Shown piece after piece: positions 222-19,138 of a stretch of 19,545 nucleotides of DNA (positions are counted from its first letter, which is position 1; every line of letters begins with the position of its first letter). Below the pieces are notes generated by a model. The model was not told where the DNA came from. It worked only from the letters and a program-made list of their open reading frames with translations, and ran no database searches. A program made the translations under genes and the position numbers. Source of the stretch: Candidatus Gastranaerophilales bacterium (GTDB lineage: Bacteria > Cyanobacteriota > Vampirovibrionia > Gastranaerophilales > Gastranaerophilaceae); the NCBI GenBank assembly GCA_944323945.1, contig CALUUL010000033.1:1-19545 (forward strand). Direction: 5' to 3'.

Positions 222-3200
222 TTACATAAAATATCTAAAATCGTAAGATTTATTATACAAAGCCTCTTTTTGCTTGGACATCCTAGAAAGTGTTTTTGCA
301 AAGTCTAGTGTTACCGGCATATTTTTATATAGATTATCACCACTGTTCCAATTCATCTTGGTTAGCATTAATATCTCTTTAACTAATGTGTCTCCGGAAG
401 CTTTTCCGTAAAATCTTTTTACTAAAACCGGAAGTGGAATTCCTCTCCCACCTTTATAGTATGTATTATATCTGCAATTCCCTATATCATCTCCGACAAC
501 ACAACCATGTGTCCATAGCAAGAAACTGTCATTGGATAATTTTATAGTAGTTCCACGTTCAAGAGGGAAACTATTAGGAATAGCTTTTCCCTCTTTTATA
601 AAATATTTTATCGCTCTGTAAGGAGAATAACCCTGAATTTGCAACAATTCAATGTCTTCAATTCCCTCTAATGCTTCAGTAAATCCTGCAATTTCTTGAG
701 GTGTAAAAGGTGTTGTTTTATGTATTACAATTCGTCTTAGTTTTGCAACCGGATCGCATTTATAGTATTCTTCTCTTAATTTACTTATTGTTGTTCTTGC
801 TTCATCTCGCTTCATATAAGGATTTTTGCCAATATATTGAGGATCATCTAATTTTTTCAATATTAATCTTATTCCGGTTCCTGTTGAATCAAATAATTGG
901 CTACAACCTATACATATTCCTTTTGTGTTAGATTTTGCATAACTAATTCCAACAAAAGCAGTCTCATCATCTAAAACTACAGGATGCCACAAAACACCGG
1001 ATGCTTTTGCATATAAACTTGTTGATAATGCCCACATTACTTTACATTTATCATAAGCCGTTAGAGAACGTTCCTCTATAAATTGAATTTTTATACCTTT
1101 ATTGGTTCCGTATAGTTTTATAGCATCATGCAAATTAAAATCTGGGTCATACCCGCTATCTTCTCTGAATTTTGCAAATGATTTTGGTATATATATAACT
1201 AAAACATCAAAATCTGATAATTGAGTTTGAAAATAATCTATTTGAGATTTTATACTATCGACAAAAGATGCTGTGTTTGCTTTAGAAGTTGCAGCTTCAT
1301 CGTACATTCTGCATAATTGCGTATTGTTTTTATCAGGTATATTTAAAGCTCTTTTATAGGTTTCATAAAATCCTTCATAATTCGGCAAAAACATTTCACC
1401 ACTTTTTGCAGAATTTTTTGCATTAAGATTATTTAAATGTCCTATAATATTACCTATTTGTTGAATAGGAGATAAAATAGCAATTCTAATCGGCGACTTT
1501 TCGGTAGTTTCAAAAGAATAATCAATAGGTGCATACCTTTGCAAACCTTTTAATTGATTTATACTTGTACGATTTTTATCATTAACATCAAATAACATTT
1601 CGGGTTCGTCAAATTTAAAAGAAGATACCTGTGGATATTTTGAATCTGACAATAATTTGTATGAAAAACACACAAAGTTAAATTTTATAGAAAAGTCACT
1701 ATTTGTGAATATAATTTCATTACTAGCTTTTGTCTTAAGAAATGCATTTAAATCTTTTAGGCTCTTACCATAATCAGCATTATATATGCTTGACATTATG
1801 CTGTTTATTTCAACTTGTTTGTATAATTTATTAACTTCACTGCCATTTTTATTAGTTAAATAAATAGTTGGTATTATAGATAGGTAAATTTTTTCATTTA
1901 AATACGACAATTGAACTTCAAAAGCAGAGTATTTTTTGTATGTGAAACGAGCTTTATTTTGATGGTCTGATATAGAATCTACAAAGTAGTATTTATTTCT
2001 TCCAAAAGATTTTATATTTGAATTTTGCAATAATGAGATTTTTATTAATTCATAAAGCAGTCCTAAATATACGAAATTCTCTTTATTTAATAATTCGGTT
2101 TCAGGAAATACTGTTGTAATTTCTGACTTTATATGCCCTTTAAATATTTCTTTTAGTTTATCACTACTAGAAAAAGAATATATTTTTCCATTAAATAATC
2201 CTGCGATTATATAGTTGTTTCCACCTATTATTGTTCGTAGTTCTTTCCAATTTTTTATATCTGTTTCAAATACATTGCAAGAAGGTAATTCTGTCGAGAC
2301 AAAGGTGTTCATTTTTAATGAACTTTGTGCAATTTTATCTGAAGAAAAATTAATTTCTTTTTTTCTATTATCAAAATCTTTCCATCGTTCGTCAATTATA
2401 AGATTTTTATGTTCATAATTTTGGTATATCAAATTTAAAAATTCATCAAAACCATCAATATCAATCACACAGGACAGTTCATTGTTTTTGCAAGCCTTTT
2501 CCATAAAAGCATTTGCTCGTTCAGATAATATTGTATTTTGTGGCTTACACCAATATATTCCTTTGCTTAGAAAATCTTTATTATCTATATTATCCTCAAG
2601 AACTTTCATTACAGAGTCATCATTTCCTGCATAACCTATAACAATGAGTCCTTTATTCATTAAATTCTTGCAAAATAAATCTGATAATTGGCTTTCTAAA
2701 TTCTGCAATTCCTGTTCTGTATTTTGTAGGGAATCATATCTATAATCACCATGCAATTTTATGACATTTTGAAAATTGTTATTGGCTATTTGAGAGATAC
2801 TCTCTTTCTGTATTGAAGACACAACATTAAATGAATATTGAGGTGATAATGTTTTAATGCCTGCCTCAATTAACTCATCAAAGTTTGTTGTCCAGATGTT
2901 TTTGACTTGATTATTAATAAACAAATTAGCAAGACAAAGATGTCCTCTTATGGGCTCAACATTTGCAACGAGCTTTTGAATATATGCATTTCTTGCAGAA
3001 GTATTATCATAACATTTTTCAAAATAAAACGAATATTCTTCTTTTGAACCCCTTTTGGGGAATCCATCTAAAGAGTCAAAGTAATCCTGTAATTTAGTTC
3101 TATTTCGTTCAGATTGTAGATCTTTAAATAGTTCTCTGGAAACATTATTTTCAGAACAATAAATTTCTTTTTTAAATTGCCAAACTAGATTTTGTCCGCT

Positions 3201-3305
3201 CGGAATACCCGCTAATAAAGATGCACCAGAGCCAAGAAAAAAGTCTATATCACTACTAACTAAGAAATTGCGAATAAATGAAGTTGGATCTTTTGTATTA
3301 ATCAC
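222..3305 (-). CDS. Single-chain SIR2-APAZ-PIWI short Argonaute (SPARSA-like defence protein)
   Basis: About 1027 aa. Residues 15-290 are a SIR2 NADase domain: GSGAS (25-29), the TTNFDE segment with N141 and D143, the catalytic-type LHG with H185, and GYAGND (224-229) are all intact. Residues about 300-600 are poorly conserved, in the position expected for an APAZ/N-L region. From about 600 to the end is a MID-PIWI module, recognised by ALSTSLYAKASGVLW, the IHKTTPFTPQEI segment and the LTKMNWN...PVTLDFA tail of short Argonautes. The first catalytic Asp of PIWI is replaced (FVGISYA, Ser near 787), so it should bind but not cut nucleic acid. In the known family, guide-directed recognition of invader DNA activates NAD+ hydrolysis and abortive infection. 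The fusion matches the single-chain clade rather than the two-gene form. The start is GTG with an AAGGGG site 7 nt upstream. It diverges from the SEC-C gene. Confidence 0.88.
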   Translation of the reverse strand: MINTKDPTSFIRNFLVSSDIDFFLGSGASLLAGIPSGQNLVWQFKKEIYCSENNVSRELFKDLQSERNRTKLQDYFDSLDGFPKRGSKEEYSFYFEKCYDNTSARNAYIQKLVANVEPIRGHLCLANLFINNQVKNIWTTNFDELIEAGIKTLSPQYSFNVVSSIQKESISQIANNNFQNVIKLHGDYRYDSLQNTEQELQNLESQLSDLFCKNLMNKGLIVIGYAGNDDSVMKVLEDNIDNKDFLSKGIYWCKPQNTILSERANAFMEKACKNNELSCVIDIDGFDEFLNLIYQNYEHKNLIIDERWKDFDNRKKEINFSSDKIAQSSLKMNTFVSTELPSCNVFETDIKNWKELRTIIGGNNYIIAGLFNGKIYSFSSSDKLKEIFKGHIKSEITTVFPETELLNKENFVYLGLLYELIKISLLQNSNIKSFGRNKYYFVDSISDHQNKARFTYKKYSAFEVQLSYLNEKIYLSIIPTIYLTNKNGSEVNKLYKQVEINSIMSSIYNADYGKSLKDLNAFLKTKASNEIIFTNSDFSIKFNFVCFSYKLLSDSKYPQVSSFKFDEPEMLFDVNDKNRTSINQLKGLQRYAPIDYSFETTEKSPIRIAILSPIQQIGNIIGHLNNLNAKNSAKSGEMFLPNYEGFYETYKRALNIPDKNNTQLCRMYDEAATSKANTASFVDSIKSQIDYFQTQLSDFDVLVIYIPKSFAKFREDSGYDPDFNLHDAIKLYGTNKGIKIQFIEERSLTAYDKCKVMWALSTSLYAKASGVLWHPVVLDDETAFVGISYAKSNTKGICIGCSQLFDSTGTGIRLILKKLDDPQYIGKNPYMKRDEARTTISKLREEYYKCDPVAKLRRIVIHKTTPFTPQEIAGFTEALEGIEDIELLQIQGYSPYRAIKYFIKEGKAIPNSFPLERGTTIKLSNDSFLLWTHGCVVGDDIGNCRYNTYYKGGRGIPLPVLVKRFYGKASGDTLVKEILMLTKMNWNSGDNLYKNMPVTLDFAKTLSRMSKQKEALYNKSYDFRYFM

Positions 3306-5769: not shown

Positions 5770-6858
5770 TTATAGTAGCTCATCAATTTTAACCTCACTC
5801 GTAATATATACTTCAGGCATGAGGTGAGCGTATGTATTCATTGTAATCTCAAAAGAAGCGTGTCCCATTTGTTTTTGTATGTATTTGATATTCATATCTT
5901 TAGCCAATAATAGACTTGCATAGGTGTGTCTTAAATCATGGAATCTCACTCTTGCTACACCCGCTCCGTCCAACACTTTATTAAATCTCCTTTTAATCAT
6001 ATTATCAGCATCCATAAATTTACCGTTTGATTGTGAAAAAACAAGATTCATTTCATTTGGTTCAGATTTTTGTTTTAAATCTTTTAATACATCCATAAGT
6101 TTATTGGGTACTTTAATTTCGCGAATAGAATTTTTTGTTTTAGGAATTGTTATTATTCCTTTATGTAATGTTTTTGTAACTTTTAGTGTTGATTTTTTAA
6201 AGTTGACACAGTCCCAAGTTAAGGCTAATATCTCTCCTCGCCTCATTCCTGAATATATTGCAGTTAATAACAGTGGATAAAAGTCAGGATAATTCTTTTG
6301 TGAAAAGTCCAAAACAGCGTCTATTTCCTCTTTTGTTAAGAAACTCATTTCTATATGTTCAACCTTCAACTTTTTAACTCTTTGCACGGGATTAAACATA
6401 ATATACCCATTTTCAATAGCCCAGTTAAAAATAGTGCCCATTGAAGTCAGAATATTGTTAATTGTTTTATTTGAAAAACCTTCTTTTTGTTTCTGTTTTA
6501 TAAATTGACTTATAATAAGAGTATTTATATCGACAAGCTTGATATCTTTGAAGAAATTTTTTAGATGTAAATTATAATGGTCCTTATAACTTCTGATTGT
6601 TGAGGGCTTTAAATTCACCTCTGCATATAAAGTAATAAATTTTTCTACAACCTCTTTAAATTTGATATTTTTATCTTGTGTAGTATTGCTACCAGCGTTT
6701 GCATTTTGCATATCTTCTGCTTGTGCCTTTTCGGCATCGGGCTTTGTTTTAAAGCCCGATTTTTGATGTCTTTTGCCGAAAATATCATAAAAATCATATC
6801 CCCAACTTGCACCCTTACTACCATTTTTGTTCGTGTGGTATCGTTTTTTAATCCCCAT
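5770..6858 (-). CDS. int: Tyrosine integrase of the element
   Basis: 362 aa, a normal length for phage and Tn916-like integrases. Residues 18-50 (SWGYDFYDIFGKRHQKSGF) resemble the AP2-like arm-binding domain; 66-160 is the SAM-like core-binding domain; 170-360 is the catalytic domain with R206 in SGMRRGE, a lysine at 240/242, H307-x-x-R310 (HDLRH), H333 (GHAS) and nucleophile Y343 (NTYAHL), so all catalytic residues are present. It should recombine attP with attB, most likely the tRNA-fMet 3' half whose copy lies at 19343. GGGAGG lies 8 nt upstream of the ATG, and the start overlaps the excisionase gene by 11 nt, so the two are co-translated. It points toward the expected tRNA junction. Confidence 0.95.
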   Translation of the reverse strand: MGIKKRYHTNKNGSKGASWGYDFYDIFGKRHQKSGFKTKPDAEKAQAEDMQNANAGSNTTQDKNIKFKEVVEKFITLYAEVNLKPSTIRSYKDHYNLHLKNFFKDIKLVDINTLIISQFIKQKQKEGFSNKTINNILTSMGTIFNWAIENGYIMFNPVQRVKKLKVEHIEMSFLTKEEIDAVLDFSQKNYPDFYPLLLTAIYSGMRRGEILALTWDCVNFKKSTLKVTKTLHKGIITIPKTKNSIREIKVPNKLMDVLKDLKQKSEPNEMNLVFSQSNGKFMDADNMIKRRFNKVLDGAGVARVRFHDLRHTYASLLLAKDMNIKYIQKQMGHASFEITMNTYAHLMPEVYITSEVKIDELL

Positions 6859-7045
6859 AGAACTTCCCTCCCATATTTATTAATTGAATAATCTGTTCTT
6901 CTGTCATTTTTATACGTTTACCAATTTTGATACATGGTAGTTGTCCTCTCCATTTCATGTTATAAAGTGTACCTTTTGGAATTCCTAAAATCTTTGAAAC
7001 TTCGTCCAAGCTGTATATTTTAGGAATTTGATTTAAATTTTGCAT
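6848..7045 (-). CDS. xis: Excisionase-type MerR-like HTH protein
   Basis: 65 aa. The sequence YSLDEVSKILGIPKGTLYNMK followed by GQLPCIKIGKRIKM and a terminal helix is the winged-helix pattern of HTH_17 excisionases: a recognition helix, then a basic wing (KIGKRIK). Such proteins bind near att sites and shift the integrase toward excision. They sometimes also repress the int promoter. It overlaps the integrase start by 11 nt, and AAAGGAG lies 6 nt before the ATG. A 118-bp gap with a 10-bp inverted repeat separates it from the helicase gene. It could be only a transcription factor, but size and position favour Xis. Confidence 0.85.
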   Translation of the reverse strand: MQNLNQIPKIYSLDEVSKILGIPKGTLYNMKWRGQLPCIKIGKRIKMTEEQIIQLINMGGKFYGD

Positions 7046-7163: not shown

Positions 7164-9122
7164 TTACTCCTCCCTACACGAGGGTAAATTGTTTAAGATA
7201 GCTTCTAACTCATCTAATGGGGTATTCAAATTTGTGGAATGATTATTTAAAATATTATTATTTCGTAAGCTATAACCTGAAAACTCCTGAACATCTGGAA
7301 TGTTGGTTATATCTATAATAATTGACTGCCTTCTTTCACCTTTAAAATTGCCTGTTATACCCCTGTTTACAACTCTGTTGTCGCAATTTAAAAAATTGTT
7401 AAATATTTTTAGCTTTATTTTCCTATTTTCATCTCTAAAAAAGTTATTATGTGCACAAAGCAAAGTGTCTTTATGAAATTGCAAGTATATTTTATCGTTT
7501 TCTGGTTGAAATACTTTGTAATGCTCATTTTCTCGAATAATACCATGACTTTTAAGTGTTAAAAGAGCATTTAAAAGCATATCAACAGGGGTCTCTAGTG
7601 ATTTATATGTTTCAATAACATTTCTAGCATAATCAATAATTTTACTATACAATTCATCAAGGCTATAGTTGGCTACATTCTCAAGTAATTTTAACCCTGT
7701 CCACATATAAGCAACATTACTCAAAATACGTGGAATGCCTGTATCTGAGATGTGTTGCCTTAAATGTTCCTCAAGTTTACTATGAATATTTAAAATCTCG
7801 TTTACATCAAATTCTAACAATTTTGGAAGTATTAAAGATAAATCCCGTCTGTTTTCTTTGTGCTCATTCAAATAGTGATACTTACTTACATCTAGCGAAT
7901 TATTCATTATTGTAATGATATTAGCTCGATTGATAACTTCTGGAATTCCATTTAATGTGCTATTGGTTGAACATACACATTGTGAACAAGTTTTTCTTTT
8001 TTCTGTTTTTTTATTTTCACCTCGTTTAGCCCTTGAAATACCGTTGTATAATGCTTTGATGAAATTCCCAAAACTTTTAGAAGAAATTACTTCGTCTGAC
8101 AGATCATCTACACATATATTGCTACCATTTATCATTTGTGCTAAACTCATTTGTCCATATACTGTTGAATTCCCTGCAATTAAAAAACTTTCATCTAATC
8201 CGAACATGGCATTACCATTTTCAATCATTGTCGATTTACCACAGCCAGTAACACCTGAGACGACTAAAATTGGAACACCTTTTTTCTTGTCAATAAATGT
8301 TTCATAGAATAAACCCATTATCATATGTCCTATAATTAGTAAGGCAAATATGGAATTATCGCCCCAACTTTCGCATGTATTTTCTATAAAGTTTTTAGCA
8401 ATATCACTTGCTGTTTTATTACTATCGCTTAGTTTTGGAAGTTTAAAACATTGTTCATCATTTGCTATTATAAATACATCTTTTTTTAAGGTTGGGATTA
8501 ATCCATTTTTATCTGCTTTATAGATTGTCCCCTTATCGATAAAGAAGTCACCGCCTAAAAATTGTTGAGGTTGAATAATTTCACAATTTTCATATTTTAT
8601 AACGTTTTTATTTATTTTTGAAAGAACAAACTCTGTAATAAAATCTTTAAACTCGGTTTGATTAAAAGTCATTTGAAAATAATTATCATTTTGACTTATA
8701 GTTTCTTGAAATTTGTTAATATCGAATTTTGCATTTTGGGCAATTTCAATATTAGATTTAATATAACCGTTGGTAGACCCTAGTGCTAATAGAAGATAAC
8801 AGCAGTCTTTATCATTGCTATGATTGTTAAATATATGAGTTACATTAAAGGCTTCAACTACAGTAAAATTAGTTTTCTTCTTTATTCTAATGTCATTCTG
8901 TTTGAATTCTATTAGAAATATCATTCCAAATAGCTCCATAAGAGATTTATTCTTATCTGATTTGGCATAATTATTATCAAAAGGAATATAAAAATCTTCT
9001 ATGAAACTCAGATTTCGTAACTTAGTCTCATGTTGTATAAATATAGATTCAAAAGATTTTTTAGCAAGGTCAAGAGGACTTTCAACTTTGTTTTTTACAT
9101 TGTTTTTTATATCTTTAATCAT
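7164..9122 (-). CDS. Replication protein with AAA+/SF3-like helicase domain
   Basis: 652 aa from the chosen ATG at 9122. The N-terminal 260 residues are unrecognised. Residues about 280-450 hold an ATPase: Walker A GVTGCGKST (about 290-298), Walker B ICVDD (about 335-339), then a basic RAKRG segment and a TSNSTLNGIPEVINRAN-like sensor region, resembling the DUF927/D5-type helicases that follow prim-pol in satellites and plasmids. It should unwind the element's DNA at its origin. The start is fixed by an AAAGGAAA site 6 nt upstream and by an ATGA overlap with the primase stop; a longer frame starting at 9185 has no ribosome site and lies inside the primase gene. The C-terminal 150 residues may be a DNA-binding region. 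Confidence 0.8.
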   Translation of the reverse strand: MIKDIKNNVKNKVESPLDLAKKSFESIFIQHETKLRNLSFIEDFYIPFDNNYAKSDKNKSLMELFGMIFLIEFKQNDIRIKKKTNFTVVEAFNVTHIFNNHSNDKDCCYLLLALGSTNGYIKSNIEIAQNAKFDINKFQETISQNDNYFQMTFNQTEFKDFITEFVLSKINKNVIKYENCEIIQPQQFLGGDFFIDKGTIYKADKNGLIPTLKKDVFIIANDEQCFKLPKLSDSNKTASDIAKNFIENTCESWGDNSIFALLIIGHMIMGLFYETFIDKKKGVPILVVSGVTGCGKSTMIENGNAMFGLDESFLIAGNSTVYGQMSLAQMINGSNICVDDLSDEVISSKSFGNFIKALYNGISRAKRGENKKTEKRKTCSQCVCSTNSTLNGIPEVINRANIITIMNNSLDVSKYHYLNEHKENRRDLSLILPKLLEFDVNEILNIHSKLEEHLRQHISDTGIPRILSNVAYMWTGLKLLENVANYSLDELYSKIIDYARNVIETYKSLETPVDMLLNALLTLKSHGIIRENEHYKVFQPENDKIYLQFHKDTLLCAHNNFFRDENRKIKLKIFNNFLNCDNRVVNRGITGNFKGERRQSIIIDITNIPDVQEFSGYSLRNNNILNNHSTNLNTPLDELEAILNNLPSCREE

Positions 9123-9973
9123 TTTGTTTCCTTTCTGTATTGACATTTTGCACAATCCGCAAAATAACCACTTATTGTGTTGCAATTAACATTGTATTTA
9201 GCTGCATTTTGAAATTTCGCTTTTACAGCAGTTTTATTATAGCCAGGGTGTGGTTGGCTATAATAATCAAATAACTCCTCACCATTTGAAAAAGAGTTCA
9301 TAGTACAGGCAAATAGATGCCATAATGGTTCTGAGAGCGTTTCGGCATTATCAACGCAATGTTTAATAAATGCACACCTTTCATACATCTTTTGAATATC
9401 ACCGTCTATTATTTTCCGTTGATGTTGATTACGTTCCTTTGCCTCTGATAAAAGCGATTTAGGGATATCATGAGCAGGTTTGTTCAGAAATTCAACCCAT
9501 TTCTCTGGTAAATCTGCAATAATAAAGTCACCGTTTTCATCAATACCGTCAACAAATCTATAAGACTTATTGTCTATTTTACTTGGCTCAATTAAGACAT
9601 AACCTCGAAATTTTACATCTATACTATTGCCGATTTTCCCAACTGGGTTTATTATTTTTTCATCAGAGAAAAAATAATGCCTTCCCCCACTAGGAGTGCT
9701 TTGTGTCAGAGTTTTTGGAAGTTTTCCAAGCTTGTTTTCCAGTTCTTCAAGTAATTTTAAACCGTTTAACCCTCTTGTTTCATTAACATCACAATCTATG
9801 ACTATAATGTTAGAGATTTCACAGGCAAGCCCAACATTAAATCCTTTTGCTGTGCAATTTTCAACATCAAAGTTAATTTTGGCATTTTTAAAGCCATTTG
9901 GTGTTGCCGGAGATTTTGAGTTCTGCTTACACTGAAAGAGGGCAAATTCATTCATTTTCTTTATTTTTGCCAT
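9119..9973 (-). CDS. Bifunctional primase-polymerase (prim-pol) domain protein
   Basis: 284 aa. It begins FALFQCKQNSKSPATPNGFK with K-x-P-x-x-x-G, then GFNVGLACEISNIIVIDCDVN (GVGL-type element and the metal-binding D-x-D), STPSGGRHYFF (the S-G-G-x-H motif), and IDVKFRGYVLIEPS. These are the ordered motifs of the archaeo-eukaryotic-type prim-pol domain (PF09250), which makes primers and extends DNA in plasmids, phages and satellites. The C-terminal 90 residues contain Cys-rich segments (NCNTISGYFADCAKCQ) that may bind zinc. AAAGGAG lies 7 nt before the ATG, and its TGA overlaps the helicase start (ATGA), so both replication proteins come from one mRNA. Confidence 0.88.
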   Translation of the reverse strand: MAKIKKMNEFALFQCKQNSKSPATPNGFKNAKINFDVENCTAKGFNVGLACEISNIIVIDCDVNETRGLNGLKLLEELENKLGKLPKTLTQSTPSGGRHYFFSDEKIINPVGKIGNSIDVKFRGYVLIEPSKIDNKSYRFVDGIDENGDFIIADLPEKWVEFLNKPAHDIPKSLLSEAKERNQHQRKIIDGDIQKMYERCAFIKHCVDNAETLSEPLWHLFACTMNSFSNGEELFDYYSQPHPGYNKTAVKAKFQNAAKYNVNCNTISGYFADCAKCQYRKETK

Positions 9974-10551: not shown

Positions 10552-10941
10552 TTAAAGCATTTCTTTTAGATTAGGATACAGCCCGACAAGTAATTTAGCG
10601 ATAAATATTTTTATTTTTGTTTTTACAACGTTTTGCGAGCACATTAACTTTGCGGATATTAATTCAAGGTTATAGCCGCTTTTGACTAGAGCCAAAAATT
10701 CTTTTTCTCTTTCAGTCAGCTTTATTCCTTCTTTAATTTCGCATGACAAAGGGTCTGTCAATTCAATAGCATATTTTGCAGGCAAATTTTCAATTTCGTT
10801 GTATGATAAGCCAATTATTTCCCTAATTTCAGCCTCGGATTTTTCCTTAATCATCTCTATGGCTGTTTTACAGTCAATGCGACATAAAAATAACCAGTCT
10901 TTAAAGTATTTAGTATAATAATTGTTGGCTTCTTTGGACAT
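10552..10941 (-). CDS. Small HTH protein of the LuxR/sigma-region-4 type
   Basis: 129 aa from an ATG at 10941. The N-terminal 65 residues are unrecognised. The C-terminal part reads LTEREKEFLALVKSGYNLELISAKL followed by SQNVVKTKIKIFIAKL, which is the LuxR-type pattern (T-x-R-E-x-E-hhhhh-x-G-x-x-x-x-x-I-A-x-x-L...T-V-K-x-x-h). It should bind DNA, perhaps controlling the primase operon 578 bp downstream. A GTG at 10962 would add seven residues but has no ribosome site, while AGGAT lies about 8 nt before the ATG, so I chose the latter. No receiver or ligand-binding domain is obvious. Confidence 0.65.
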   Translation of the reverse strand: MSKEANNYYTKYFKDWLFLCRIDCKTAIEMIKEKSEAEIREIIGLSYNEIENLPAKYAIELTDPLSCEIKEGIKLTEREKEFLALVKSGYNLELISAKLMCSQNVVKTKIKIFIAKLLVGLYPNLKEML

Positions 10942-10989
10942 ATTTATAGATCCTAACCTCACTATTACTATGAGTTAGCAGTGTTTTAA

Positions 10990-11400
10990 TTAAATCTTAT
11001 TTTCATCTAATTTTTTCTTTATCCAATCTGCATATTTTTCAGCTGATTCAGCAATAAAATTGTCATCAGCAAGGGAAGAAATATTTATAATTGTAGACGT
11101 TTCTTCAATTGTATCTTGACCGATACTATAAATAATAGCTCCAATATGGAATTTGGGTACTACAAATTTTTCCATGTCAGTATTAAAGTACACACCCAAT
11201 CGTTTTCCATTTGCGGCATCATAACCAAGTTCCTGTGTATTGTTATCCACAGGATAAGCCGGGTTAACATCTATTTGTGCGGCAATTTCTTTTTTTAGTC
11301 TTTTCCATAAAGAGTTTTGAGTATTTTCCAATTCTACCCAAATTTGTTGAGCCTCTTCAATATCTTTTGCGGTTTGAAATTTTTTCACATCTACTTTCAT
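10990..11400 (-). CDS. Unrecognised 136-aa protein
   Basis: 136 aa, soluble, with no signal peptide or membrane segment. The first 45 residues are charged and probably helical (KDIEEAQQIWVELENTQNS), followed by a mixed region with an AAYPVDNN-like loop and FNTDMEKFVVPKFHIGAIIYSIG, and a terminal amphipathic helix (AEKYADWIKKKL). I do not recognise the family. AGAGGT lies 6 nt before the ATG, the same ribosome site as the SMC-hinge gene 35 bp upstream, so the two are probably co-transcribed. No function is assigned. Confidence 0.6.
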   Translation of the reverse strand: MKVDVKKFQTAKDIEEAQQIWVELENTQNSLWKRLKKEIAAQIDVNPAYPVDNNTQELGYDAANGKRLGVYFNTDMEKFVVPKFHIGAIIYSIGQDTIEETSTIINISSLADDNFIAESAEKYADWIKKKLDENKI

Positions 11401-11434: not shown

Positions 11435-12064
11435 TTAACAACCCTGAAATACGTCAAAGAGCTTAGTTCCAGCTGCAAAGTCTTTATTCTGTTTAAAGCT
11501 CAAACCTAGTCTTATATGTAAGCCGCCAGTTATTAAACCTGATTTTTCAAAAAGTTCGCCTCGAAGTGTAACCATTCGGTATTTTCCGATAAGCTTTTGG
11601 GCACATTCCATATTCTCAACAACTATGATTTCACCGACAGCATAATAAAAAGCATTAAAGTATTTGTTGTCAAAGTCAACGAGGTTAATTGCAAAATCAA
11701 TTACCCCCTTGTCCTTTGGTAAATTTAAATTGGAAGGGGCTTTTGCAATTTTATTGAGCGGTATAAAGGTTGCTCTACCTGCCTTAGAGGATAATAAAAG
11801 TTCAATCGCAGCAGCAGCGGCTTCCTCGTTATCAACAACAATATGTGTCATTTTGTTACCGCAAGCAACTTCCATTGCTGTAGTATATTTCCTATCAACG
11901 GTTCCAAGTTCTACAAGCGGTGCATGAACACCTTGCAAATGTGCGTTCATAATAGTATCAATTGCCCTGCTGAAACGGTTATAAGTAATTTCAGATTGTT
12001 CGGCTTTTTTATCCGGTTCTTCTTTAAAAGCCTCTTTATGTTTTTCAATTTCAACCTTATCCAT
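11435..12064 (-). CDS. Stand-alone SMC hinge-domain protein
   Basis: 209 aa, against roughly 1,150-1,200 for a full SMC protein. Residues 42-181 are a complete SMC hinge (PF06470 type): GVHAPLVELGTVDRKYTTAMEVA, HIVVDNEEAAAAAI, KAGRATFIPLNKI, VIDFAINLVDF, and KYRMVTLRGELFEKSG ending in ITGG. The wording is closest to cyanobacterial SMC. The N- and C-terminal ATPase heads are absent and only about 40 residues of the entering helix and 28 of changed sequence after ITGG remain. Hinges dimerise SMC arms and contact DNA, so a free hinge could pair with the host SMC and disturb it, or act as a DNA-binding dimer. It is a proper gene, with AGAGGT 5 nt before the ATG and a clean stop. It looks richer in GC than neighbours, consistent with capture from a host smc gene. 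Confidence 0.85.
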   Translation of the reverse strand: MDKVEIEKHKEAFKEEPDKKAEQSEITYNRFSRAIDTIMNAHLQGVHAPLVELGTVDRKYTTAMEVACGNKMTHIVVDNEEAAAAAIELLLSSKAGRATFIPLNKIAKAPSNLNLPKDKGVIDFAINLVDFDNKYFNAFYYAVGEIIVVENMECAQKLIGKYRMVTLRGELFEKSGLITGGLHIRLGLSFKQNKDFAAGTKLFDVFQGC

Positions 12065-12109: not shown

Positions 12110-13081
12110 TTAATAAATATTTAGCACATCTGATAGACATGTTTTATAGTACTCTCTTAACTCCGCAGGCTTTTGGATTTTGACGTTGCAGCCCCATTTA
12201 AAAAGTTCCTGACATATTGCATAAGTTCCGCCTGATGTATATTTTACCTGTATATTTCCGTTTTCAAGCTGTTTCATCTTCTGTGTAGGGTGAAAATGGT
12301 AGTTCAAAACATCTTCTGCAACGGATTTATTAAATTCAAGTGTTATATTCAGGGGTTTTTCCTGATAAACTCCGAATGAATTGTTACAGTAATCAGTCAA
12401 AGAAAACTTTTCATCTTTTTCAAAGTACTCATCTAAAATAGTCAGGTCACTGATTTTATCGACTTTGTACTGCCTTAATGCGTTCATATAATCATTAAAC
12501 CCGACTAAATAATATTTATTTGCAATAACAAGTCCATACGGATTCAGTGTAATAGTCTTTATTTCCCCGTTTATCGGGTAATCAAAACCAATCTTTTTAA
12601 ATGCAAGCATGGCAGACCTTAATTGTTCTAAAACCTTAGGGTCTGCTTTTGCCCTTGAATACTGTCTTACTGCAAAGCCTTCCGATTCTAAAATTGCTGA
12701 AACATCAGTATCAAGAGTTCTCAAATTCTTTTGAGGTGTTAAAGCCTTGATTTTTGCAATCAGTTCATCAAGCTGTTTTTGTTTGTTTTCATCTGTTGAC
12801 AAACCTTTTAAATATTCAAGGTTTGCAAAGTCATCTGCTGTAAAGGAGATTAAAGCATTCATTGTGCCTTTAACAAACCGCCAGCGTTTCTTCTTGTCAG
12901 ATGTCGGAACTTCCTCAACTTTTTCAGGAAATAAGTCAAACAAAAGGGCTTTCATTCTTTCAGCTGAACGTCTTGAACACTCAAAATGCTCTTGAATATC
13001 ATCAATGCATAATCCGCAATAGCTATTCTGAAACATCATTGCAAGTTCTATTATTTCTTCGGTTTTGTTTAGTCTTGACAT
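12110..13081 (-). CDS. WYL-domain transcriptional regulator
   Basis: 323 aa. Residues 1-70 form an N-terminal helix-turn-helix (CIDDIQEHFECSRRSAERM), followed by a wing with KKKRWRFVKG. Residues about 140-225 are the WYL domain (the YGLVIANKYYLVGFNDYMNALRQYKVDKISDLTIL stretch, here a variant of the W-Y-L core), and 235-320 is a WYL C-terminal extension. WYL proteins bind ligands, often nucleic acids or nucleotides, and regulate DNA-damage and phage-defence genes. GAGGTG lies about 6 nt before the ATG. It is the first gene of a minus-strand group with the SMC hinge (45-bp gap), the unknown protein and the LuxR-type HTH, so it probably controls them. Confidence 0.88.
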   Translation of the reverse strand: MSRLNKTEEIIELAMMFQNSYCGLCIDDIQEHFECSRRSAERMKALLFDLFPEKVEEVPTSDKKKRWRFVKGTMNALISFTADDFANLEYLKGLSTDENKQKQLDELIAKIKALTPQKNLRTLDTDVSAILESEGFAVRQYSRAKADPKVLEQLRSAMLAFKKIGFDYPINGEIKTITLNPYGLVIANKYYLVGFNDYMNALRQYKVDKISDLTILDEYFEKDEKFSLTDYCNNSFGVYQEKPLNITLEFNKSVAEDVLNYHFHPTQKMKQLENGNIQVKYTSGGTYAICQELFKWGCNVKIQKPAELREYYKTCLSDVLNIY

Positions 13082-13148: not shown

Positions 13149-13931
13149 TTATTGGTCTAGCATTTCTGATAAAACATCTCTTATTTCTGACGAAAAATTT
13201 TGTAAATCTGAATTCGAATATTCATTTCGTACTATATTACAAGCCTTGCCAATCCAAATTCCATCTATTGTATCGTACCAATTATGTTCCCAGTAATCTT
13301 TATACTGTTTTACAATTTCTTTAACAATATTATTAGTGCAAGAGCTTATAGTCTCGTCATCTATTATTTCTGCAATATCACTCTGTTCAATAATTTGATA
13401 TTGATAGTTGTTCAATAATTCTAAATCTGATTTTCTAAGAATTTCTGAATATCCAGTGATAAACACAAACTCCTGCTTACAAGATTCAAATTCTGCTTTA
13501 CTATTAACAAAGTTGTAATATCTTTCTATTTGTGATTTTCCATTTTTACCTATACATATCTTGGCATCAATTTTATTTTCAATTATACATACGAAATTTG
13601 CCTTTTTAGAATAAATAAATATATCAATATTCCCACTACCTGTAGGGTATTCAGTTTTTATAAAAATATCTTCAGATAATAATTTCACAAAGTCGTCAAG
13701 ATTTTCAGCTTCAATATTTATTTTTTTCAGAAATTTTTTCATAAACTGAAATTGCAAACTATTTTTAGATTTATTTTTGACATTCAGTAACCAAGCCAAA
13801 AATTTTGTATGACTTGTTTCTCTCATTTGAATAATTTCAAATAAATTAAAAGTTTCCTTTTTTGATTGCTTTTGTTCTACATATTGTTCAATAACAGATA
13901 ATGCTTTTTCTTTTGTGATAGTTTCAGTCAT
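13149..13931 (-). CDS. PD-(D/E)XK superfamily nuclease (PDDEXK_4-like)
   Basis: 260 aa from the ATG at 13931. Residues 38-49 (ETSHTKFLAWLL) and 98-120 (GSGNIDIFI then FVCIIENKI) give E38, D103 and E118-x-K120, and SQIERYY (133-139) gives the Q of the final helix. This order is that of the PDDEXK_4 family (PF14281), predicted metal-dependent DNA endonucleases often found beside restriction or phage genes. An upstream in-frame ATG at 13949 has no ribosome site, while AAAGGAG lies 8 nt before the chosen one. It is divergent from a C-protein-like HTH with a C-box-like operator between them. No DNA methyltransferase lies next to it, so whether it is a restriction enzyme is open. Confidence 0.78.
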   Translation of the reverse strand: MTETITKEKALSVIEQYVEQKQSKKETFNLFEIIQMRETSHTKFLAWLLNVKNKSKNSLQFQFMKKFLKKINIEAENLDDFVKLLSEDIFIKTEYPTGSGNIDIFIYSKKANFVCIIENKIDAKICIGKNGKSQIERYYNFVNSKAEFESCKQEFVFITGYSEILRKSDLELLNNYQYQIIEQSDIAEIIDDETISSCTNNIVKEIVKQYKDYWEHNWYDTIDGIWIGKACNIVRNEYSNSDLQNFSSEIRDVLSEMLDQ

Positions 13932-14011
13932 AATAAACACTCCTTTCATATTTCCAACAACAGTTTACCACATACCTATGTCAAAACTTGTCGTAATAAA
14001 TTTTATCATTA

Positions 14012-14058: not shown

Positions 14059-14274
14059 ATGATTGAGTCTGATTGTGTTAAATTTGCTAATAATGTTAAG
14101 AAATACAGAGAGAAGCTCGGTTATAACAAAAGCCGTATGTCCGAATTATTAGACTGTGATTTGTCATATATTGGTAAAATTGAACGCTCTGAAAAATTTC
14201 CCAATTTGAAAATGATTTTTAAAATCGCCGAAGTATTACAGATACCTGCAAAAGATTTATTTGATTTTGAATGA
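14059..14274 (+). CDS. XRE-family HTH regulator resembling restriction controller (C) proteins
   Basis: 71 aa, almost entirely one helix-turn-helix domain. Residues 8-65 (FANNVKKYREKLGYNKSRM..., LLDCDLSYIGKIERSEKFPN, LKMIFKIAEVLQIPAKDLF) match the C-protein pattern of R-x-x-x-G, Y-I-G-x-I-E-R, and a final K-I-A-x-x-L-x-I-x-x-x-x-L-F. C proteins are dimers of about 80 aa that first activate, then repress their own promoter to delay restriction. The ATG has no ribosome site and the predicted transcript starts only about 8 nt before it, a near-leaderless layout common for C genes. It is divergent from the nuclease gene. It could instead be a phage-type repressor. Confidence 0.75.
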   Translation: MIESDCVKFANNVKKYREKLGYNKSRMSELLDCDLSYIGKIERSEKFPNLKMIFKIAEVLQIPAKDLFDFE

Positions 14275-14457: not shown

Positions 14458-15021
14458 ATGGAATTTGTTCAACCAATTCGAGATATTAAACAGATTGAAA
14501 CTATTAAGAAACTGCTTAAACAACAAAGTATGAGAGATTATTGCTTATTCGTTCTCGGTATCAATTCAGGATTAAGGATTAGTGATTTACTGAAACTCAG
14601 AATATCCGATGTCAGCGAAAAAGGTAAAGTCAAGGATAGGATAAGATTAAGAGAGAAGAAAACAAATAAATTTAAAGATTTTCCAATATCAGAAAATGTT
14701 AAAAAAGCGATAAAAGAGTATTTACAGACAAGAACAATAGACGAAAATGAGCCTTTATTCATATCAAGAAAGAATAAGGGCTTTTTAATGCGACAAAGAG
14801 CCTACTGGATTTTAAACGAAGCAGCAAGGTCAATAGGGATTAAAGAAAAAATTGGTACGCATACATTAAGAAAAACATTCGGATATCAGGCATACAAAAA
14901 CGGATATGATATAGAAATAATCCAAAAACTTTTTAACCACTCCTCACCTAGCATAACACTACGTTATATCGGAATCACTCAAGATAATCTTGATGATGTG
15001 TACTTGAGTTTAGATTTATAA
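14458..15021 (+). CDS. Minimal tyrosine recombinase (catalytic domain only)
   Basis: 187 aa, about half the length of ordinary integrases. It lacks an arm-binding domain and nearly all of the core-binding domain. The catalytic signature is complete: R near 40 in NSGLRISD, a lysine in REKKTNK (about 68), H-x-x-R in HTLRKTFGYQ (about 136-139), H near 160 (LFNHSS) and Tyr in TLRYIG (about 170). Such short XerC-like proteins occur in phages and plasmids and may resolve multimers or invert DNA. AAGGAGG lies 7 nt before the ATG. It is transcribed toward, and stops 5 bp from, the end of the 84-aa gene. Its partner site is not obvious in the window. Confidence 0.85.
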   Translation: MEFVQPIRDIKQIETIKKLLKQQSMRDYCLFVLGINSGLRISDLLKLRISDVSEKGKVKDRIRLREKKTNKFKDFPISENVKKAIKEYLQTRTIDENEPLFISRKNKGFLMRQRAYWILNEAARSIGIKEKIGTHTLRKTFGYQAYKNGYDIEIIQKLFNHSSPSITLRYIGITQDNLDDVYLSLDL

Positions 15022-16472: not shown

Positions 16473-17216
16473 CTAATAATTGCATAAATGCTTAAATAAT
16501 ATCAACTGTGTGGATTTTTCAACTTTTGTTCTGTTCTCAATTATATCCTGCTTGTGTGTCATAACTTGTCGTAACTTGTATTCAAAATTACTCAAAAAGT
16601 AAAACGGTGTGTAGTAAACCTCAAAATATCTCATGGCTAGACTATCACCTCTTATTACTTTTGCAGGAATTCCGAGTAATGAAAGCTGAATATAAGTCAT
16701 TTTAAAGCAAATTTCATCAATATCAACGGCCTCAACAAATAACTGGTGTTGGTAATTATACCCCTTATCTTTCATAGTTTCTGCATAAGCAATTATCATA
16801 CCGCCGCTGCCACAACAAGGTTCAGATAGTGTTATAAAACCTTTTGTATTAATTTCGTTTTTTAGATCTATAAAATTTATTTCAGCCATCATTTTACTGA
16901 CATGATAAGGTGTAAAAAAATGCCCCTTATTTGAATTTCCTAAGTTTAACTCTGAAAATACCTGCCCTAAAAAGTCCTGATGTTTTTCTTCTAGCCCTGA
17001 AACTAAAAGAGCAAGCAGTTTTGAAAATTCTTCTGCTTGCTCTTTATTGTATTGACTTATTATGTATTTGTATCTTTGTTCAATATTAGGACTTCGGTAA
17101 AAGGGTTGTGCCAGTGAACATAATGCTAATGTTGTAAAGTCGTTGAATACTGTAGAAATACTCTTTGACCTATCCAAACTCTGTATTTTTGATGTAAATT
17201 GCCTTATATAATCCAT
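16473..17216 (-). CDS. HsdM-like N6-adenine methyltransferase fold protein lacking NPPY
   Basis: 247 aa. Residues 97-110 (KGHFFTPYHVSKMM) and 130-140 (LSEPCCGSGGM) are the HsdM-type entry segment and the SAM-binding motif I; VEAVDIDEICFKM follows as motif II. The catalytic motif IV, normally N/D-P-P-Y/F after GD, is replaced: GDSLAMRYFEVYYTPFYF. This pattern of a good SAM site with 'Y-T-P-x-Y' in place of NPPY is common in orphan methylase-like proteins of plasmids and integrative elements. It may bind SAM and DNA without methylating, or use an altered site. The ATG is the first codon after an in-frame TAA; AAAGGAG lies 13 nt upstream, longer than ideal. It heads the operon with the WG-repeat gene. 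Confidence 0.7.
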   Translation of the reverse strand: MDYIRQFTSKIQSLDRSKSISTVFNDFTTLALCSLAQPFYRSPNIEQRYKYIISQYNKEQAEEFSKLLALLVSGLEEKHQDFLGQVFSELNLGNSNKGHFFTPYHVSKMMAEINFIDLKNEINTKGFITLSEPCCGSGGMIIAYAETMKDKGYNYQHQLFVEAVDIDEICFKMTYIQLSLLGIPAKVIRGDSLAMRYFEVYYTPFYFLSNFEYKLRQVMTHKQDIIENRTKVEKSTQLILFKHLCNY

Positions 17217-18511: not shown

Positions 18512-18796
18512 ATGATTGATAAAAAACATATAGGCTCTAGTTTTGACAGTTTTCTTGAAGAAGAAGATATGCTTCAAGAATCAGAAGCTATTGCAATAAA
18601 AAGGGTTATTGCTTACGCATTAGAACAAAAAATGCTTGAAGATAACATTTCCGTAAATCGTTTAGCAAAAGAACTGGAAACATCAAGAACAGCTATTTGT
18701 CGCATTCTTGACCCTAATAATACTTCGATTACGTTGAACACAATCGAAAAAGTCGCCAAATACTTAGGTAAAAGAATTATTTTATCTTTTGCATAG
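18512..18796 (+). CDS. XRE-family HTH antitoxin (HigA-like)
   Basis: 94 aa. The first 20 residues (IGSSFDSFLEEEDMLQES) match the standard N-terminus of HigA-type antitoxins that pair with Gp49/HigB toxins, and 45-90 is the helix-turn-helix (SVNRLAKELETSRTAICRILDPNN then ITLNTIEKVAKYLGKRI). It should neutralise the toxin encoded at 18782-19138 and repress its own promoter through the 26-bp palindrome. AAAGG lies about 9 nt before the ATG. Its 3' end overlaps that of the convergent toxin gene by 15 bp, where tandem organisation would be usual. Confidence 0.85.
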   Translation: MIDKKHIGSSFDSFLEEEDMLQESEAIAIKRVIAYALEQKMLEDNISVNRLAKELETSRTAICRILDPNNTSITLNTIEKVAKYLGKRIILSFA

Positions 18797-19138
18797 CTCT
18801 TTATAGCGTTTAATTGCGACATCTAGTTCTTTTTTAGGAGTTTCTTGTGTTTTTTTGATAAATGCGTGTAATAAGACCATTGTATTATCTTCAACATAAA
18901 ATATAACTCGTGCGATTCCATTTGAAATATTACAACGGACTTCTTCTAAACCACCAGTACCATGAAGAACACGAGTTAGCGGCATTCCAATAGGATAACC
19001 GTATTGGACAGTTTTAATATCAAATCCAATTGTTCGCATATCCTCTCTAGGTAAACTTTTTAGCCATTCTCTGACAGGTTCATTTCCTGAACTTGTTTTG
19101 TAAAAATATACTTCCAATGCCTCTGTTCGCTTTGCCAT
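18782..19138 (-). CDS. RelE/HigB-type toxin (Gp49-like)
   Basis: 118 aa. Residues 17-30 (GNEPVREWLKSLP), LEEVRCNI (about 65-72), RVIFYVEDNTMVLLHAF and KKTQETPKKELDVAIKR are the ordered motifs of the phage-derived Gp49-like/HigB family (PF05973), ribosome-dependent mRNA interferases. The strands and basic C-terminal helix expected for RNA binding are intact, so it looks active. It is on the opposite strand to its antitoxin, with tail-to-tail overlap of 15 bp. An extended -10 (TGCTATAAT) sits 6 nt before the ATG with no ribosome site, so its mRNA should be leaderless and poorly translated. Confidence 0.88.
   Translation of the reverse strand: MAKRTEALEVYFYKTSSGNEPVREWLKSLPREDMRTIGFDIKTVQYGYPIGMPLTRVLHGTGGLEEVRCNISNGIARVIFYVEDNTMVLLHAFIKKTQETPKKELDVAIKRYKELCKR

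Follow-up and report, generated by a model that had tools for sequence, protein, structure and literature searches.

The window analysed here is a 19,545-nucleotide stretch of DNA from Candidatus Gastranaerophilales bacterium. It contains a mobile element in which a small gene encodes a free-standing SMC hinge. The hinge gene is part of an operon. The nuclease, WYL, hinge, C136 and LuxR-like genes follow one another on one strand, and then come the Prim-Pol and integration genes. The features are as follows.

13149..13949, minus strand: PD-(D/E)XK_4 nuclease (Pfam PF14281, 85 bits; PADLOC PDC-S26, 79 bits over the first half of the model)
12110..13081, minus strand: WYL-domain regulator, the marker of the cassette (Pfam PF13280/PF25583)
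12077-12071, minus strand: ribosome site AAAGAGG, 6 nt before the ATG, common to gene X of locus L106 (see below) by pairwise alignment
11435..12064, minus strand: free-standing SMC hinge gene, 209 aa (ORF, Pfam PF06470, predicted fold)
10990..11400, minus strand: C136, 136 aa, no Pfam family; directly before the LuxR-like gene in some hinge-less relatives
10552..10962, minus strand: LuxR-like HTH protein (GerE, 21.8 bits, below the cut-off of 23.5)
9119..9973, minus strand: Prim-Pol primase (Pfam PF09250, 76 bits)
7164..9185, minus strand: putative helicase, 673 aa, named by position and a visible P-loop only; no Pfam family
6848..7045, minus strand: small excisionase-like ORF, named by position only
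5770..6858, minus strand: tyrosine integrase (Pfam PF00589, 96 bits)
14059..14274, plus strand: cI-like HTH protein, divergent from the operon, named by eye
14458..15021, plus strand: second tyrosine integrase (Pfam PF00589, 108 bits)

The genes from the nuclease to the LuxR-like protein are separated by gaps of 27-67 nt. The WYL gene is up to 96% identical to Gastranaerophilales genes. At the element ends we found no tRNA and no direct repeat of at least 18 nt that convincingly brackets the integrases. Other genes in the window include one at 222-3305 (minus strand) for a protein of 1027 aa, which starts with a SIR2_2 domain (54.5 bits) and has a C-terminal half that looks PIWI-like by eye. 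An HTH ORF and a convergent 118-aa ORF at 18512-19138 resemble, also by eye, a HigBA/RelE-type toxin-antitoxin pair. At 16473-17216 (minus strand), a 247-aa protein with an N6_Mtase domain, apparently a short methylase, is encoded next to a WG-repeat gene. Similar pairs are located beside the second integrase in loci L107, L188 and L190, where the methylase was recognized by length and sequence start.

The hinge ORF begins with the ATG at 12064, and its stop codon ends at 11435. Both domain model and fold identify the product as an SMC hinge, which occupies residues ~32-195. The Pfam SMC_hinge model (PF06470) matches residues 44-158 at 105.1 bits, against a cut-off of 22.5 bits, and the match spans positions 2-115 of the 116 in the profile. 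The NCBIfam model SMC_prok_A gives 211 bits, and a sequence search of the PDB gives SMC hinges as the closest chains (2.5e-29). The AF2 model has a mean pLDDT of 77, with values of ~90 over most of the hinge and below 50 at residues 13-29 and 195-209; the remaining four models have means of 46-70. SMC hinges are also the top PDB matches in a Foldseek search with the model. Pfam found no head or further domain in the 209-aa protein, and SMC models match its hinge part only, indicating that it is not a full SMC with heads and coils. These results agree with the preliminary description of this DNA, which had proposed a complete hinge with its own ribosome site and start and without ATPase heads. 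It had also proposed a changed tail after the ITGG motif. This holds for residues ~196-209 only, which are foreign and originate in gene X, in its 3’ end and the adjoining flank; up to residue ~195 the sequence is of SMC type. Beyond that description, residues 1-31 are also non-SMC and correspond to the leader of gene X.

Gene X is a gene of related elements, 249 aa in L101 and L106 and 268 aa in L102 and L107. It adjoins the WYL gene in L106, as the hinge does in the window. By alignment, the hinge gene divides into three parts.

11972..12064, minus strand: gene X leader with the start codon and the initial ~31 codons, non-SMC (DNA and protein identity)
11480..11974, minus strand: SMC-derived hinge segment (DNA alignment to the chromosomal smc of L001)
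11435..11490, minus strand: foreign tail, residues ~196-209, from the X 3’ end and flank

Window positions 13042-11974, which cover most of the WYL gene, the gap, the ribosome site, the start and ~31 codons, are 91.5% identical to L106 in DNA. Positions 11969-11480 (490 bp) are 78.8% identical to the chromosomal smc of L001. The homology to L106 is back at 11490-11403, with 82% identity over 89 nt. The leader of the hinge protein shares 74% and 61% protein identity with the X N-terminus. In two genomes of the order (G133 and G068), a second match to the hinge query covers residues 1-31 only and is gene X. The alignments indicate that a ~490-bp SMC hinge segment took the place of the X interior in frame, while the ribosome site, the start and ~31 codons were kept. 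The X origin of leader and tail explains both unusual ends of the hinge protein.

Sequence comparison points to a chromosomal smc of Gastranaerophilales type as the source of the captured hinge. The hinge shares 75% protein and 79% DNA identity with a Gastranaerophilales smc, and the hinge query finds matches in 369 of the 383 genomes of the order. When genome contigs were scanned with a hinge alignment, 184 loci were confirmed. The best 80 of the 184 are all inside long SMC frames, seven of them cut by contig ends, and include 54 loci from Gastranaerophilales, 6 from Melainabacteria and one each from Scatousia and Cyanobacteria, as well as 2 from Fusobacterium that are out of place by sequence. 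An exact-word scan of the genome contigs for the hinge gave no match. A viral origin was rejected, since scans of viral contigs with the hinge and with the WYL gene gave no relative. Eleven phage and 13 plasmid records match the hinge, all at less than 60% identity. Five of these 24 records were inspected, and four have the hinge in SMC-length frames of 1178-1255 aa, one of which is cut by the record end. In the fifth, a Metamycoplasma orale plasmid (L220, NZ_LR214944.1, 982-3245), the hinge is in a 447-aa frame beside a separate ATPase gene; the record has it in a 439-aa hypothetical gene that overlaps the ATPase gene. The locus may be an SMC that has been split or frameshifted, or it may be a further hinge without heads. 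Microcystis phage MaAM05 (L222, MW495066.1, 134592-143068) carries a full smc next to scpA and scpB, with a hinge 48% identical to ours; this stretch may be cellular DNA.

The host origin also bears on a role suggested in the preliminary description, namely that the protein blocks an SMC-type defence such as Wadjet. The hinge is a shared domain and could in principle block the JetC hinge. However, the SMC_prok_A match and the DNA identity mark it as host chromosomal SMC, no PADLOC family matches it, and its gene is beside a candidate defence nuclease. An anti-Wadjet origin was therefore rejected, and we consider an anti-Wadjet function highly improbable. The operon itself is neither Wadjet (JetABCD) nor Lamassu, as no Jet, LmuA or LmuB model in PADLOC matches its five proteins in the window.

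Relatives of the hinge protein recur with intact reading frames. Intact close relatives are P0001, P0002, P0004 and P0005 (99%, 93%, 75% and 68% identity), each with an X-like leader. P0003 is 93% identical over 80% and has another N-terminus: in this hinge-only protein, found on contigs of at most 1904 bases, the first ~50 residues are swapped for unrelated sequence at the hinge border. Together with the free hinges at L103 and L104 described below, these proteins answer two checks proposed for the preliminary description: hinge-only proteins do recur in mobile elements, and frames of relatives 68-99% identical are not disrupted. The window protein and P0001-P0004 form one clade with support of 100/99, and in a smaller tree the window, P0002, P0004 and P0005 form one clade with support of 99/97.

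The differences between these relatives are not evenly spread. Using 71 host hinges as reference, with the divergent L094-L097 excluded, the window and P0004 differ at 3 of 74 host-invariant columns and at 27 of 91 host-variable columns (p=1.2e-5). The same bias is observed for the pairs P0002-P0004, window-P0005 and P0004-P0005 (p from 3e-6 to 3e-4). It is not significant in the closer pairs of the window with P0001, P0002 and P0003 (p of 0.59, 0.19 and 0.35). Pairwise dN/dS from the hinge to its nearest host is 0.11, compared to a host-host median of ~0.07 at like dS, and the free-hinge branch carries an extra dN of 0.086. These rates indicate that the free hinge is relaxed yet constrained. 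By itself, the dN/dS may be compatible with a short neutral spell, and the gene could be an accidental recombinant without function. The recombination inside gene X is visible as its origin, and a mini-head remnant with a stop in L103 and a decayed LuxR-like copy in L194 indicate that parts of these cassettes do decay. However, a pseudogene is disfavored because the differences in diverged pairs avoid host-invariant sites. Intact relatives with a similar leader extend down to 68% identity, relatives occur on many contigs (88 for P0043, 47 for P0051 and 13 for P0004), and the free hinges have the substitutions K71 and N79 in common. A functionless scrap is thus very unlikely in our judgment.

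Six genomes of the order gave two hinge-query matches each. Besides the two with gene X, true hinge-only genes are present in G153 (L103, 162 aa) and G019 (L104, 159 aa), so that such genes are rare (2 of 383 genomes of the order). Both matches of G274 are in frames of 695 and 622 aa. In G266, a 4.2-kb contig (L105) encodes a headless hinge with coiled coils (380 aa, 564-1706), and beside it a stand-alone sigma-70 region 4 (69 bits) at 1775-2089. A profile search returned 82 proteins, many of which are SMC fragments on short contigs; they include P0042 (159 aa, identical to L104), P0043 (162 aa, identical to L103), P0044 and P0045. In addition, 16 of the 17 proteins P0046-P0062, P0058 being the exception, are hinges fused to a LuxR-like domain. 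This domain corresponds to the window gene at 10552-10962, two genes downstream of the hinge. P0051 and the LuxR-like protein of L186, where C136 holds the place of the hinge, share 115 consecutive identical residues, which suggests a recent module swap.

Two positions distinguish the free hinges from their hosts. K71 and N79 are present in all 15 free hinge rows (13 distinct sequences). Among 74 host hinges, residue 71 is always R and residue 79 is D in 72 and N in 2. The headless hinge of L105, excluded from the 15 rows, has the host letters R71 and D79. This pattern suggests that the free-hinge proteins form a family marked by K71/N79. A single clade for all 9 free rows in the smaller tree, with hosts thinned to every fourth plus a few, was not rejected (AU p 0.64), and the L103- and L104-type rows are long branches. 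K71/N79 may therefore be shared by descent or convergent, following one capture or several.

The TGG motif, which we take to be part of the hinge dimer face, is kept in 8 of the 15 rows, among them the window clade, P0005 and L104, and lost in 7. Its presence and the high identity to host SMC are consistent with a poison subunit: the free hinge would pair with the host SMC hinge to give dead half-rings, and the host chromosome cycle would be slowed or arrested. However, the loss of TGG in nearly half of the rows, and the change of R71/D79 in every one, make dimer poisoning ill-suited as one common mechanism. The clustering and fusion with nuclease and LuxR-like genes, described next, would also be superfluous to it.

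A PD-(D/E)XK_4 nuclease is in the cluster at all three hinge-only loci with context (the window, L103 and L104); the 4.2-kb contig of the fourth hinge locus, L105 with its coils, shows no such nuclease. The LuxR-like gene is present in 19 of the 383 genomes at E 1e-8, and the nuclease is on its locus in 17 of the 19, although L193 has just part of it, where the contig ends. The other two are L106, with a contig that breaks off within the WYL gene, and L194, with the decayed copy. Directly before the LuxR-like domain we found the nuclease itself, C136, the hinge, gene X or an SMC mini-head. L106 and L190 encode the mini-head and the LuxR-like domain as one fusion protein (333 aa and 335 aa, respectively), whereas in L192 the mini-head is a separate neighbor of the domain. 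In PADLOC, the window nuclease matches positions 17-205 of 400 in the PDC-S26 model at 79 bits, the first half only, and the L190 nuclease matches positions 9-290 of 413 at 203 bits. The L190 mini-head matches LmuB at up to 32.5 bits over residues 35-109.

These fusions of SMC pieces to an HTH-type domain raise the possibility of a targeting adaptor. The hinge or mini-head would anchor the nuclease and its LuxR-like partner to DNA, or to host SMC complexes that are already loaded, and the nuclease would then act at forks or on the DNA of an invader. This would be a pared-down parallel to Wadjet and Lamassu, in which SMC-related ATPases work with effectors (PMC10586767). DNA binding is also a known property of hinge domains, which fits such a role. 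However, the L138 mini-head retains Walker A but by eye lacks both the ABC signature and the catalytic glutamate, and it is not expected to be an ATP motor. Nor do the DnaA and FtsZ pieces described below fit. On balance we find a targeting adaptor doubtful.

Sister cassettes carry pieces of other host machines. A search with the WYL gene gave 45 places at 64% identity or more, of which 43 were examined as loci. Among the slot genes, Pfam recognized DnaB_C (224 bits), DnaA AAA+ (262 aa, 203 bits), part of an FtsZ GTPase domain (170 aa, 93 bits), a J-domain and SMC_N mini-heads. Ten further slot genes, out of 215 slot ORFs, gave 8 without a family, a sub-threshold match for X and one PDDEXK_4. 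In 898 kb of cassette DNA from 60 loci, the closed frames shorter than 400 aa included 4 hinges, 12 SMC heads, 15 DnaB, 1 FtsZ and 6 DnaA pieces, where the hinges include L105 with coils, the SMC heads include the broken L103 remnant, and 2 of the 6 DnaA pieces were accepted. L103-L107 and L210 joined these 60 loci through hinge, X or DnaA query matches. The control, 1.14 Mb in 80 regions around smc, gave no such stand-alone piece. These regions are core chromosome and are also without WYL and nuclease genes, so the comparison assigns the pieces to islands but does not set these islands apart from others. The located examples are as follows.

L130, 10660-11448, plus strand: stand-alone DnaA AAA+ of genome G015, beside a WYL cassette
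L210, 8463-9200, minus strand: stand-alone DnaA AAA+ of genome G015, beside a WYL cassette
L150, 10592-11104, minus strand: internal FtsZ GTPase fragment, 170 aa, between WYL and PD-(D/E)XK genes
L131, 16311-18601: trio of stand-alone DnaB C-domain, retron-type reverse transcriptase and SMC mini-head
L144, 11702-13844: the same trio
L128 (reverse transcriptase fragment), L139 and L141: the same trio

The DnaA piece search gave matches in 368 of the 383 genomes. Among the matches listed (at most 6 per genome), stand-alone closed DnaA frames of ~250 aa are found in G015 only (n=2). The second DnaA matches of G265 and G369 either lie at contig ends or belong to a single 472-aa frame, and three shorter frames of 316-354 aa in G009, G032 and G078 also match DnaA. 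Matches in L114 and L118 look DnaC/IstB-like by eye and were rejected; for L117 and L120, frame length was the only ground for exclusion. The L130 DnaA copy is 56% identical to the DnaA of its own host. Near the L150 FtsZ fragment are a J-domain protein and a gene that looks phosphatase-like by eye. The trio recurs with an SMC mini-head of ~84-95 aa. DnaB_C adjoins the reverse transcriptase in 13 of 15 places, at least two of which have reverse transcriptase fragments only, and it is perhaps a separate module.

The hinge, SMC head, DnaA, DnaB and FtsZ are homo-oligomerizing domains. Poisoning can therefore be extended to the stand-alone SMC head, DnaA AAA+, DnaB C-domain and FtsZ, which would act likewise as self-assembling domains, and this makes it a real and the main rival. 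However, the FtsZ piece is merely 33% identical to the FtsZ of its own host. With the variable TGG motif, this leads us to regard poisoning as unlikely, even as the main rival.

What remains constant among the free hinges is the hinge fold, K71/N79 and the link to the nuclease and the LuxR-like protein, and not TGG. For this reason, we prefer to see the hinge as a host-domain bait or adaptor in a candidate antiphage operon, working with the LuxR-like protein and the nuclease. The operon from the nuclease to the LuxR-like gene would be an antiphage system. An invader protein that disables or hijacks host SMC would bind the free hinge, and this binding would release or aim the nuclease complex. 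The host part on display (SMC hinge, SMC head, DnaA, DnaB or FtsZ) would vary from operon to operon, in keeping with different invader targets. The nuclease cluster, the LuxR-like fusion, the stand-alone host domains and the biased differences support this reading. Against it, the window nuclease corresponds to half of the PDC-S26 model, free hinges are rare, the FtsZ piece comes from one locus and the DnaA pieces come from one genome. We favor the bait or adaptor tentatively, at somewhat less than even chances. Phages do attack SMC complexes: T7 gp5.9 blocks MukBEF, mainly through MukE (PMC7617805). In the literature consulted, no invader protein with a bacterial SMC hinge as its binding partner came to light.

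Like the bacterial Smc hinge (PF06470), the hinge protein has the fold, 75% protein identity and the TGG motif; unlike bacterial Smc, it has no coils or heads, it carries the X leader and a foreign tail, and K71/N79 replace R71/D79. The plant protein DMS3 is a free hinge that serves as a working protein. DMS3 (PDB 6ois/6oit) appears lower in the Foldseek list (E 1.4e-8). It differs from our hinge in that its structures come from plant complexes that also contain RDM1 and a DRD1 peptide; it is 16-18% identical and has no nuclease operon. To our knowledge, hinge-only proteins are known only from eukaryotes (DMS3 and SMCHD1). The operon's PD-(D/E)XK_4 nuclease resembles the PDC-S26 type, a PADLOC phage-defence candidate. 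This label denotes a single-gene defence candidate, whereas here the nuclease occurs with a LuxR-like protein and host-domain pieces. No paper on PDC-S26 was found in the open literature. Lamassu and Wadjet likewise combine an SMC-related part with an effector in a defence operon; according to PMC10586767, those systems have an SMC or Rad50-like ATPase, whereas here it is an isolated hinge or mini-head without visible motor parts. Panoptes, PARIS and Ronin sense the invader's attack on a lure, as the bait proposed here would. Their lures are nucleotides or defence-like proteins (PMC12409349), whereas here they would be copies of domains with which the host replicates or segregates its DNA. Among the matches listed in the open literature, with subscription papers outside the scope, there was no description of free-hinge or host-domain lure operons.

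A broader reading takes the cassettes together. Nuclease operons on mobile elements of gut Gastranaerophilales would display swappable, motor-dead or truncated copies of host chromosome machinery as lures. This would be a bacterial form of integrated-decoy immunity, able to detect when the cell cycle is attacked, and the K71/N79 proteins would be one family within it. We consider this speculative and rather unlikely in its full extent. If true, it would show that immunity can draw on single parts of the machinery with which a cell replicates and segregates its own DNA, and it would point to phage proteins that attack SMC, DnaA or FtsZ. The hinge gene, as read from the alignments, is a clear example of how a gene can arise when a domain is replaced in frame. 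Its relatives suggest a bacterial hinge-only family that is tied to a candidate defence nuclease by gene cluster and fusion.
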